Positions 2,630 to 18,037 of a DNA stretch of 37,529 bases are shown here, one piece after another. The notes beneath the pieces were generated by a model. It was given only the letters and a program-made list of their open reading frames with translations. It did not search any database and had not been told where the DNA came from. The stretch comes from Clostridiales bacterium (GTDB lineage: Bacteria > Bacillota > Clostridia > Lutisporales > Lutisporaceae). The stretch spans positions 1 to 37,529 of the forward strand of contig DUSG01000056.1 of the NCBI GenBank assembly GCA_012842725.1. Direction: 5' to 3'. Within the stretch, counting starts at the first letter, position 1. Every line of letters starts with the position of its first letter. The position numbers and the translations under genes were made by a program.

Positions 2630-2890
2630 CTATCTAGAACTTACAATTAATTTTATAGCTGTTCTTTCCTCACCATCAATATCTATGTCAGTAAATGCAG
2701 GTACACATACTAAATCCATACCGCTTGGAGCAACAAAACCTCTTGCAATAGCTATTGCTTTTATAGCTTGATTTACAGCACCTGCTCCTATGGCTTGTAT
2801 TTCTGCTCCTCCATTCTCTCTTAATACTCCTGCAAGCGCTCCTGCAACTGAATTAGGATTAGATTTTGATGATACTTTTAATACTTCCAT
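2630..2890 (-). CDS. spoVS: Stage V sporulation protein S
   Basis: 86 aa; MEVLKVSSKSNPNSVAGALAGVLRENGGAEIQAIGAGAVNQAIKAIAIARGFVAPSG is characteristic of SpoVS. Confidence 0.97.
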   Translation of the reverse strand: MEVLKVSSKSNPNSVAGALAGVLRENGGAEIQAIGAGAVNQAIKAIAIARGFVAPSGMDLVCVPAFTDIDIDGEERTAIKLIVSSR

Positions 2891-2938: not shown

Positions 2939-2965
2939 ATTCTACACTAAATGCAAAAATCCTTT
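2939..2965 (-). promoter_or_regulatory. Sigma-H-type promoter of spoVS
   Basis: - strand AAAGGATTT-N11-GTAGAAT fits the remembered sigma-H consensus RNAGGAWWW-N11/12-RNNGAAT; located upstream of the spoVS SD AAGGAGG. Confidence 0.7.
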
Positions 2966-10511: not shown

Positions 10512-12725
10512 TTAGCCTTGCATGCTTTCCCATTTTTCCTTACTGATCAATACCTTTCTTGGCTTACTACCTTCATAACCTCCAATAATACCGCGTTCTT
10601 CCATTTGATCTATTATTCTTGCTGCCCTGCTGTAGCCAATTTTTAATCTCCTTTGAAGCATCATTATAGATGCTTGGCCGGTTTCAATTACAATGGATAT
10701 TGCATCATTAAGTAATTCGTCTGCCTCTTCATCAATTTTATTTTCTTTGCTGTTTTCATAATCTTTAAAAACGTCTTCAATATAAGATGGAGATACTTGT
10801 CCTTTAATATATTCTACTACGGATTCGACTTCTTTTTCAGAAATAAAAGCACCTTGAACCCTTATTGGTTTTGGTTCACCTACAGGATGATATAGCATAT
10901 CACCTTTTCCAAGCAATTTTTCTGCTCCGCCGATGTCAAGAATTGTTCTAGAATCAACTTGTGAAGTCACTGCAAAAGAAATCCTTGAAGGAATATTTGC
11001 TTTTATAAGACCTGTTATTACATCCACAGAGGGTCTTTGAGTAGCTATTACCAAATGTATACCTGCAGCCCTTGCCATTTGTGCAAGACGGCAAATAGCA
11101 TCTTCAACTTCATTGGGAGCAACCATCATCAAATCAGCTAGTTCATCGATAATAACTAAAATTTGAGGTAATTTGTCGTCATCTTTAGTAAATAATGCAT
11201 TATAACTTCTGATATCTCTTACATTCTTTGAAGCAAATAGCTTATACCTTTCAGTCATTTCTGAAACAGCCCAATTCAATGCACCGGCAGCTTTCTTTGG
11301 ATCCGTAACAACCGGAACTAACAGATGAGGTATACCATTATAAACACTTAATTCTACAACTTTTGGATCAATCATCAGCATCTTTACTTTATTGGGAGCA
11401 GCTTTAAATAATACGCTAATAATGATCGAGTTTATACAAACGCTTTTACCGGAACCTGTTGCACCTGCAATAAGCAAATGAGGCATTTTAGCTATATCTG
11501 CTATAATATTCTTTCCTGCTACATCTTTTCCTAATGCAAAAGCTATATCTGATTTTGTGTTTTTGAAATCATCTGACTCTAAAACCTCTCGTATGTAAAC
11601 AGTTGTAATTTCTTTATTAGGTATTTCAATTCCTACTGCAGCTTTACCCGGAATCGGAGCTTCTATCCTTATACCTTGTGATGCCATGCTTAAAGATATA
11701 TCATCAGCTAGATTAACTATCTTGCTTACTTTTACCCCTGGACTGAGTTGAAGCTCATATCTAGTGATCGATGGACCTACGCTAACCTGTGATACAGTAG
11801 CATCTACGTTAAAATTCTTTAGTGTTTCTTCTAATATTTTAACATTATTCATAATCTCTTTTTTCATATTTCCGCTTTTATTATCTGGTGGTGGATAAAG
11901 CAATGTAGTACTTGGCAATACATAATGTGGGTAATGTTTTGTATTATTTGATGTAATTTTATCTTCAACGCTTATATCTTCTTTTTCCATAGTTGTTTCC
12001 TTTGTTTTATTTTTGAAGCTACTATCGAACTTTTTTGTAAAATCTATTATTTTTATCTTATTATCATTTATTTTGTTTTCAACATAATTTTCATCTGATA
12101 AATCATTATTAACGGTCTCTTTTCTTTCATCCTTTTTAGAATTCATTTTTATCGTTTTACTTCTTAAATTTAAAGATGTCAATAATTTAAAGAGAGTTGA
12201 TTTAATAATATTTAATAGATTTGCTGCAGTAATTCCTGTAAACATTATTAAAGAAATAAAAAATGATCCGATTAAAACAACATAAGTTCCTGTAATACCA
12301 AATATATTGACCATTAAATAACCAATAGCGGTACCAATTATACCGCCACCGATTTTTTGTGAACCTAAATCATATGAAGCAATTATTGTTTCTATAAAAT
12401 CCATTTCAACTTCTTGAAATATATTAATATTTACCAAAAATAATAACACTAATAGTGTAACAAATGCTAAACAGAATGAATAGAACTTTATATTCAGTTT
12501 TATATTTCCTTTAAAATAAAAAGCAGCCACACCTAAAATAATAAGTAACATTGGGAAAATATATGAACCTATGCCGAATATTCCAAATAACACTTTATTA
12601 ACTAATTTACCAGCTAAACCTGAATCATTATCAAACATGGAAACATAAAAATAAATTGCTATAATTATTAAAAAGATGCCAAGTATATCATATTTTAATC
12701 TGTTTGTTTTCTTATTTCTTGTCAA
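10512..12725 (-). CDS. ftsK: DNA translocase FtsK/SpoIIIE; probable TTG start at 12725
   Basis: N-terminal TM segments, HLLIAGATGSGKSVCINSII Walker A, LVIIDELADLMM Walker B, C-terminal gamma-like winged helix (ASIMMLQRRLKIGYSRAARIIDQMEERGIIG). Confidence 0.96.
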   Translation of the reverse strand: MTRNKKTNRLKYDILGIFLIIIAIYFYVSMFDNDSGLAGKLVNKVLFGIFGIGSYIFPMLLIILGVAAFYFKGNIKLNIKFYSFCLAFVTLLVLLFLVNINIFQEVEMDFIETIIASYDLGSQKIGGGIIGTAIGYLMVNIFGITGTYVVLIGSFFISLIMFTGITAANLLNIIKSTLFKLLTSLNLRSKTIKMNSKKDERKETVNNDLSDENYVENKINDNKIKIIDFTKKFDSSFKNKTKETTMEKEDISVEDKITSNNTKHYPHYVLPSTTLLYPPPDNKSGNMKKEIMNNVKILEETLKNFNVDATVSQVSVGPSITRYELQLSPGVKVSKIVNLADDISLSMASQGIRIEAPIPGKAAVGIEIPNKEITTVYIREVLESDDFKNTKSDIAFALGKDVAGKNIIADIAKMPHLLIAGATGSGKSVCINSIIISVLFKAAPNKVKMLMIDPKVVELSVYNGIPHLLVPVVTDPKKAAGALNWAVSEMTERYKLFASKNVRDIRSYNALFTKDDDKLPQILVIIDELADLMMVAPNEVEDAICRLAQMARAAGIHLVIATQRPSVDVITGLIKANIPSRISFAVTSQVDSRTILDIGGAEKLLGKGDMLYHPVGEPKPIRVQGAFISEKEVESVVEYIKGQVSPSYIEDVFKDYENSKENKIDEEADELLNDAISIVIETGQASIMMLQRRLKIGYSRAARIIDQMEERGIIGGYEGSKPRKVLISKEKWESMQG

Positions 12726-12726
12726 C

Positions 12727-12835
12727 GATATCACCCCAGATTAGAATTCTACATAAATTAGAAAAATCCTTTATCGTATAAAAATAGGTTAAAATATTGT
12801 ACTTTTTTGAAAATTTATATGATTGGGGTGATATC
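12727..12835 (-). repeat. Long-range 12-nt inverted repeat whose proximal arm contains the ftsK SD
   Basis: GATATCACCCCA at 12727-12738 and its exact reverse complement TGGGGTGATATC at 12824-12835. Confidence 0.8.
12746..12772 (-). promoter_or_regulatory. Sigma-H-type promoter of ftsK/spoIIIE
   Basis: - strand AAAGGATTT-N11-GTAGAAT; the two boxes and the spacer length are identical to those upstream of spoVS. Confidence 0.65.
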
Positions 12836-12853: not shown

Positions 12854-13582
12854 CTAGTTTATTTGTTTATTAATAGATTTATTTTGTTTTTTCTCATCTA
12901 TTAAACTTCTCAGTTTTTTCAAAGCATCTTTCAAGCCACCAATTTCATGGATTAATCCATAATCAACTGGTTCTTTACCAATTAAAACTGTACCTACATC
13001 ATTTGCTAATTCGCTTGTGGTAAACATTAGTTTTTTCAATGTAGTTCTTTTTATGTTGCTATGATTTACAATGAAATTTATTATTCTTTCCTGCATTTTA
13101 TTAAAATAGTCATATGTCTGAGGAACTCCAATAACTAAGCCATTCATTCGTATTGGGTGTATAGTCATTGTAGCCGTTGGTGCAATATAGGAATAATCAG
13201 TAGATACAGCTAAAGGTACTCCTATACTATGCCCTCCACCCAATACAATGGACACAGAAGGTTTGTTCATGCTGGAAATCAATTCTGCAATTGCTAAACC
13301 TGCTTCAACATCACCTCCGACTGTATTTAGTATTAACAATAATCCTTCTATATCATAACTTTCTTCTACAGCAACAATCTGGGGTATTATATGTTCATAT
13401 TTTGTGGCTTTGTTTTGAGGTGGTAATATTGTATGACCTTCAATTTGTCCTATTATAGTCATTGTATATATATTGCTTTTTAATTCTGACACATTAGTTT
13501 GTCCTAGCTCTTTAATATTTTCAGTTGTATTTTCATTGTTTTGTTCTTGCTCATTTTTTTCTGATAAAAATTCATTAACCAA
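12854..13582 (-). CDS. tepA: ClpP/Crotonase-fold serine protease, TepA/YmfB family (TTG start)
   Basis: [51 protein letters not shown]; adjacent to ftsK/spoIIIE as in B. subtilis. Confidence 0.88.
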
Positions 13583-13648: not shown

Positions 13649-13683
13649 AAACACCTCATTGTAATATACACAATGAGGTGTTT
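13649..13683 (-). terminator. Terminator in the dapG-tepA intergenic region
   Basis: AAACACCTCATTGT / ACAATGAGGTGTTT perfect 14-bp stem. It lies upstream of the tepA start and downstream of the dapG stop. Confidence 0.75.
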
Positions 13684-17229: not shown

Positions 17230-17940
17230 TCAATTAGTGGTTTCAATAACCTCACTTACAGGTACAATCTTAAAGTTGTTTCTAATTAAATCGTTTATCA
17301 TTATTGGTAAAGCTTTTACAGTAGATTCAGTGGGATGCATCAAAATAATTGCTCCATTATGGATTTTTTTATTAACCCTTTCTAATATTTTGGTATAATC
17401 TTTTGTATTCCAATCTATTGTATCAATACTCCACATAATTACCTTATAACCAAGACTTTCAGCTATTTTAACAACTTTCATATTTAGATCTCCATAAGGG
17501 GGTGCAAATAATTTTGTTTTTACACCTATTATATTATTGATTACTTCTTCTGTTTTTATAATTTCTTCTATATTCTTTTCCTCGCTAATTTGCGTATGTC
17601 TTAAATGATTATATCCATGATTGCCTATCTCGTGATTATCTTCATATATTCGCATCAACAATTCTTTATTTTTATCAGCCCAATCACCACCTATAAAGAA
17701 AGTGATTCTTATATTATTTTTCTTGAACTCACTTAGCATATCAGGCAAATATTCATTACCCCAAACAACATTGCAGGCAAAAGCAACCTTTCTCTCCTTC
17801 TCATTACCTTTATATATAGGTTCAAATTGTTTGAAGGTATTTATGCTTCTTCGATTCATAAAAAATAATGTAATACAAATTAGAATGATTACTAAAATTA
17901 TAGTCATAACAGTTTTCTTTTTTATTATAAATACTTTCAT
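17230..17940 (-). CDS. ylxY: Polysaccharide deacetylase (NodB homology) family protein, YlxY-like
   Basis: N-terminal TM segment; NodB-like motifs HEIGNHGYNHLRH, APPYG, MWSIDTIDW, ILMHP; position downstream of pnp. Confidence 0.88.
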   Translation of the reverse strand: MKVFIIKKKTVMTIILVIILICITLFFMNRRSINTFKQFEPIYKGNEKERKVAFACNVVWGNEYLPDMLSEFKKNNIRITFFIGGDWADKNKELLMRIYEDNHEIGNHGYNHLRHTQISEEKNIEEIIKTEEVINNIIGVKTKLFAPPYGDLNMKVVKIAESLGYKVIMWSIDTIDWNTKDYTKILERVNKKIHNGAIILMHPTESTVKALPIMINDLIRNNFKIVPVSEVIETTN

Positions 17941-17992
17941 ATAAACCCTCCTCGAATAATCTTTATTTAAATATTATTCTTAAAGGGTTTAT
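17941..17992 (-). promoter_or_regulatory. Hairpin occluding the ylxY SD
   Basis: ATAAACCCT/AGGGTTTAT (9 bp), 4x4 internal loop, GAATAAT/ATTATTC (7 bp), 12-nt loop; ends immediately before ATG. Confidence 0.7.
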
Positions 17993-18009
17993 TAAATACA
18001 AAAAATTAA

Positions 18010-18037
18010 AGAAACATAAACCATAGTTTATGTTTCT
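18010..18037 (-). terminator. Terminator downstream of pnp
   Basis: AGAAACATAAAC-CATA-GTTTATGTTTCT perfect 12-bp stem followed on the - strand by TTTAATTTTTTG. Confidence 0.75.

Follow-up and report, generated by a model that had tools for sequence, protein, structure and literature searches.

An inverted repeat between tepA and ftsK/spoIIIE

The window, by which we mean the whole stretch of DNA analysed, is a 37.5-kb contig from the genome of a spore-forming bacterium of the genus Lutispora (Clostridia; G000, 85% complete, 1.86 Mb). On its minus strand tepA is followed by ftsK/spoIIIE, the gene of a translocase that pumps chromosomes, and the features at their junction are collected in Table 1. 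The window genome carries one full FtsK translocase (a single PF17854 match), and only one weak extra match to the FtsK family was found in the genus, in L. saccharofermentans. Translation of ftsK is read from a TTG codon at 12725, with the Shine–Dalgarno sequence (SD) GGGGTGA 5 nt ahead of it. The list of open reading frames also holds a longer, GTG-started version from 12734; that start would fall inside the SD, and TTG is the start conserved in the genus.

The SD forms part of the 12-nt sequence TGGGGTGATATC, and an exact reverse complement, GATATCACCCCA, lies upstream at a separation of 85 nt. This repeat, with the SD in one arm, had been described in an earlier note on this DNA and was confirmed there, at 12835–12824 and 12738–12727. 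A terminator scan gave no match between tepA and ftsK. A terminator-like hairpin of 15 pairs is present between dapG and tepA (13649–13683, minus strand), so that tepA–ftsK is probably a separate transcription unit.

Table 1. Positions in the window of genes, repeat arms and predicted promoter elements at the tepA–ftsK junction
Feature	Position	Strand	Remarks
tepA	12854..13582	-	Clp-protease-family protein; TTG start; PF00574 (2.5e-21); proposed source of the read-through transcript
5' (anti-SD) arm, GATATCACCCCA	12824..12835	-	18 nt past the tepA stop; expected on read-through RNA only
Sigma-H -35 element, AAAGGATTT	12764..12772	-	Conserved in 6/6 Lutispora
Sigma-H -10 element, GTAGAATT	12745..12752	-	Conserved in 6/6 Lutispora
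Predicted sigma-H start region, AATCTG	12737..12742	-	Placed from the -10 position and mapped C. difficile sigma-H promoters (PMC7438776)
SD arm, TGGGGTGATATC	12727..12738	-	Includes the SD GGGGTGA (12737-12731)
ftsK/spoIIIE	10512..12725	-	737 codons from TTG; PF01580, PF17854, PF09397, PF13491

A sigma-H-type promoter between the arms

A sigma-H-like promoter had been placed between the arms, at 12746–12772. The whole element, AAAGGATTTTTCTAATTTATGTAGAATT, is indeed found there, at 12772–12745 on the minus strand; it is conserved genus-wide and matches mapped C. difficile sites. The comparison comprised six Lutispora species including that of the window, namely L. thermophila DSM 19022 (G005), L. 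saccharofermentans (G001) and three metagenome assemblies (G002, G003 and G004); the genome set contained no further usable family within the order, and a scan of genome contigs for more relatives gave these same five species only. The element AAAGGATTTTT...GTAGAA stands at the same distance ahead of ftsK in all six genomes, and in each of the three species that bear the arms it lies between them. Across the six genomes the promoter pattern gave 13 matches, six of them at ftsK, as compared with none for the reversed control.

The published sigma-H consensus is (A/G)(A/C)AGG(A/G)(A/T)3 - N11-12 - (A/G)(A/G)(A/C)GAA(A/T) (PMC4754846), and the ftsK promoter, AAAGGATTT-N11-GTAGAAT, fits it at all but one position, a T standing where the -10 box should have A/G. 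In C. difficile, sigma-H promoters have the form RnAGGAwww - spacer - GTAGAAT, and the regulon has spo0A, spoIIAA and spoVS (PMC7438776). The C. difficile cwp27 promoter, CATAAAGGAAAATATTCTTTTATGTAGAATTATAATA, is near-identical in form to that of Lutispora ftsK, although the C. difficile list of sigma-H promoters is without ftsK/spoIIIE, unlike our reading of Lutispora (PMC7438776). Equivalent elements occur in Lutispora upstream of two classical genes of the sigma-H regulon, spoIIAA (GAAGGAAAAAATAAGTTAATAAAGAATAA in G000) and spo0A (GCAGGAAACAGATTTAGTTTGTCGAATAA in G000), each at a fixed place in all of the five genomes in which these genes were found. In the window, spoVS (2633–2890, minus strand) is preceded, as is ftsK, by AAAGGATTTTT...GTAGAA (2940–2965, minus strand); this element has a matching place in G003 and is slightly altered in G004.

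Full-length sigH (TIGR02859) was identified in five of the six genus members. G000 yielded only weak matches, and the lack of an intact sigH in this 85% complete genome is likely to be an assembly gap. A sigma-A promoter at the site was rejected, sigma-70-type matches being no commoner than in shuffles. On sequence grounds, we conclude that the ftsK promoter is very likely a sigma-H promoter. Such control fits the reported rise in expression of C. acetobutylicum spoIIIE as sporulation begins (PMC2530871). RNA from this promoter should be without the 5' arm, because the predicted start lies 3' of that arm.

Predicted burial of the ftsK SD on read-through RNA

The earlier note had proposed that a leader reading through from tepA could bury the SD, while the sigma-H leader would leave it free, and as a prediction this was borne out by folding (ViennaRNA). 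In read-through leaders (-200 to +40), the probability of an unpaired SD was 0.00–0.01 in G000, G003 and L. thermophila and 0.50–0.57 in the three species that lack the arm, while in sigma-H leaders it was 0.58–0.65 in all six species. The predicted cost of opening the SD on read-through RNA was 16.2, 10.2 and 13.5 kcal/mol in G000, G003 and L. thermophila, respectively; for the sigma-H RNAs of these species it was 0.7–1.9 kcal/mol (1.3 in G000). Since L. thermophila is a thermophile, folding at 55 C is also relevant; the costs on read-through RNA were then 12.5, 8.1 and 8.9 in the same order. For G003, folding also predicts a covered SD on a leader that begins at -90 and so lacks the 5' arm (probability unpaired 0.02).

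In order to place these values, 327 SD-led genes from five Lutispora genomes (388 kb) were used as a control set. By SD opening cost, ftsK ranked first in G000, second in L. thermophila and seventh in G003, as compared with 82nd for G004 and 185th for G001; the genes were called as plain ORFs required to have an SD, and individual ranks could therefore move by a little. By an ungapped helix score, calculated without folding, the three arm-bearing ftsK leaders ranked fourth (G000), fifth and tenth of 327. When the upstream 190 nt were shuffled, a helix as good arose in 0 of 2000 shuffles for G000, with p values of 0.0065 for G003 and 0.001 for L. thermophila, and the 12-mer inverted repeat was absent from 100 shuffles of the window. 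Because this case was picked from the whole window, more weight attaches to its reappearance in two further species than to its rarity within the single genome.

Pairing is retained in half of the genus

In G003 the 5' arm GATATCACCTTA stands opposite a TGGGGTGATATC identical to that of G000, giving 12 pairs of which two are G-U. L. thermophila has the orthologous 5' arm GATATTACCTC and the SD arm GAGGTGATATC, within a longer pairing of TGATGATATTACCTC with GAGGTGATATCATTG (15 pairs including G-U) that spans the SD and the start codon. Between G000 and G003 the arm core is identical at 9 of 9 positions, as against 15 of 27 and 30 of 51 in the flanks (about 56–59%), and the spacer of L. thermophila gave no useful alignment; its 5' arm starts at -176, compared with near -110 in the others. 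Relative to G000, L. thermophila shows one compensatory double change, G->A in the SD arm with C->U in the 5' arm (C-G to U-A). The remaining differences are C->U changes on the 5' arm, three of them giving G-U pairs, and the loss of one end pair in L. thermophila. Over the three sequences, pairing was retained in 97.2% of the cells scored, whereas slid partners reached 61% at most. In a covariation test on the same three sequences, random dealing of letters equalled the result in 336 of 500 shuffles; such a test on three sequences carries no statistical weight by itself, and the weight of the case rests on the pairing retained in diverged spacers and on the shuffle tests.

L. thermophila also has an extra hairpin of ~22 bp, AATTCTAAAGTTC...GAACTTTAGAATT, in the loop between the arms (G005:C53). 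This hairpin would bring the arms closer, and pairing is also possible between its 5' strand and the -10 region of the promoter.

The arm is absent from G001, G002 and G004, which form one clade, and from the rest of the family outside Lutispora. Loss of the repeat in related genomes had been set in advance as grounds for abandoning the proposal; as it proves, the arm is kept in three of six Lutispora species, while the three-species clade and the remainder of the family do without it, and it is hence not essential. A single change on the tree suffices whether the arm was ancestral and lost once or was gained once. The three species of the clade have instead an AT-rich hairpin of ~20 bp between tepA and the promoter, in which the SD is not involved; in G002 the assembly has NN across the hairpin near the tepA end (G002:C214), and part of the intergenic sequence may therefore be missing there. 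We infer that one insulating device, arm or hairpin, may have replaced the other between species. Elsewhere in the family a terminator-like hairpin is often found 3' of the upstream gene, and by eye ftsK has a TATAAT-type (sigma-A-like) promoter.

A second SD-burying hairpin at ylxY

A polysaccharide deacetylase gene of the same window (ylxY/pdaB-like, sporulation; its TIGR02873 match is below the cut-off) has an SD-burying hairpin, AATAAACCCTTTAAGAATAAT...ATTATTCGAGGAGGGTTTATATG, at 17940–18010 on the minus strand. The leaders match in all five Lutispora species in which the gene was found, and changes in the arms mostly keep the pairing. For SD burial, four of the orthologues stand at ranks 3, 8, 10 and 11 among the 327 genes. 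The conserved GTATTTTAT...AGAATAnTAAT may represent a sporulation promoter, its -10 box doubling as the 5' arm, in the same design as at ftsK. With some reserve, we raise the possibility that Lutispora uses translational insulation by a promoter-in-hairpin repeatedly in the pnp-ylxY-...-tepA-ftsK cluster (at ftsK and at ylxY), silencing developmental genes that are read through from housekeeping transcription, and that from one species to another a hairpin following the upstream gene can take its place.

Discussion

We think it probable that the repeat acts in cis to insulate the translation of ftsK/spoIIIE, a reading in which we infer that read-through mRNA is made, where sigma-H transcription starts and that translation is blocked. 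Polymerase running on from tepA would make mRNA with both arms, and once the SD arm emerged the two would pair over 12 bp, hiding the ftsK SD, so that little FtsK/SpoIIIE would be made from this mRNA. Ribosomes translating tepA should not hold the 5' arm open, because the tepA stop lies 18 nt before it. Sigma-H polymerase, by starting between the arms, would give a leader of ~12–17 nt that has the SD, lacks the 5' arm and would be translated. Output of FtsK/SpoIIIE would then track the activity of sigma-H, in the transition phase and on entry into sporulation, rather than transcription of tepA. If the tepA mRNA ended before the arm, the repeat would never act. The silencing interpretation put forward in the earlier note is partly supported.

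Could the complementarity be a chance one, without function, that was retained by common descent? The DNA is AT-rich, an SD helix score of at least 25 is reached by ~3% of genes (10 of 327, the ftsK cases counted), and half of the genus is without the arm. Nevertheless, G003 and L. thermophila keep the pairing across spacers that are down to ~58% identity or can no longer be aligned, and it was in these two species, neither of them selected, that the shuffles gave p = 0.0065 and p = 0.001; we regard chance as rather improbable. A role mainly in the fate of the RNA, with the helix acting as an RNase III-type cleavage site or protecting the tepA 3' end and so separating the two messages, would be served by the same conserved pairing, and the ~20-bp hairpin found at the same place in G001, G002 and G004, where it has no SD role, fits a replaceable, generic processing or 3'-end element. 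Against it, the partner conserved in the pairing is no arbitrary site but the SD, and among the 327 genes SD burial is the extreme feature. This explanation we judge unlikely.

A further alternative would have a protein bind two inverted DNA sites around the promoter, as an operator pair repressing the sigma-H promoter by looping. A 12-bp inverted repeat does flank the promoter, and GATATC is itself palindromic. Against this, in 388 kb the motif RGGTGATATY occurs only at ftsK SDs and this 5' arm, and its restriction to ftsK leaders led us to reject both a dispersed repeat and a DNA operator. Moreover, the spacing of the arms varies greatly (-176 in L. thermophila, near -110 in the others), most arm differences sit where RNA keeps G-U pairing, and one arm is fully accounted for as an SD, so that we consider an operator pair very unlikely. 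Among Rfam leader and riboswitch families, no covariance-model match was obtained up to E = 1.

Translational insulation by the repeat would, by analogy, make ftsK a new case of a known mechanism, that of T4 gene e, I-TevI and B. subtilis sigG. Three of the features by which a promoter-in-hairpin is recognized are found at ftsK: an upstream arm complementary to the SD and outside coding sequence, a promoter with a predicted start 3' of that arm, and stable burial of the SD predicted (ViennaRNA) on the long RNA only. In T4, long early transcripts of gene e, soc, 49 and I-TevI bury the SD, and late-promoter transcripts, made without the 5' strand, are translated (PMC3014915, PMC2988022); for gene e, the long early RNA yields about 100-fold less lysozyme (PMC3014915). 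These are phage genes with the late promoter within the 5' strand of the hairpin, whereas Lutispora ftsK is a chromosomal gene with a long loop. For sigG (spoIIIG) of B. subtilis, a large hairpin of 20 or more bp has been proposed to keep read-through RNA from being translated (PMC5942855, citing Masuda 1988, Sun 1991); it cannot form on RNA from sigG's own sporulation promoter (PMC5942855). Lutispora ftsK resembles sigG in being a developmental gene behind another transcription unit (PMC5942855), and differs from it in that sigG has a sigma-F/sigma-G promoter whereas Lutispora ftsK/spoIIIE has a sigma-H-type promoter, arms 85 nt apart and the whole promoter in the loop. The literature surveyed, with partial coverage, gave no description of comparable control of ftsK/spoIIIE.

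If translational insulation is the correct reading, an RNA fold, with no protein regulator, would put the one full FtsK/SpoIIIE translocase found in this genome under sporulation-phase promoter choice, a logic shared with phage lysis genes and with sigG. Genes transcribed together as an operon need then not be expressed together, which would matter wherever read-through in RNA-seq is taken as expression.
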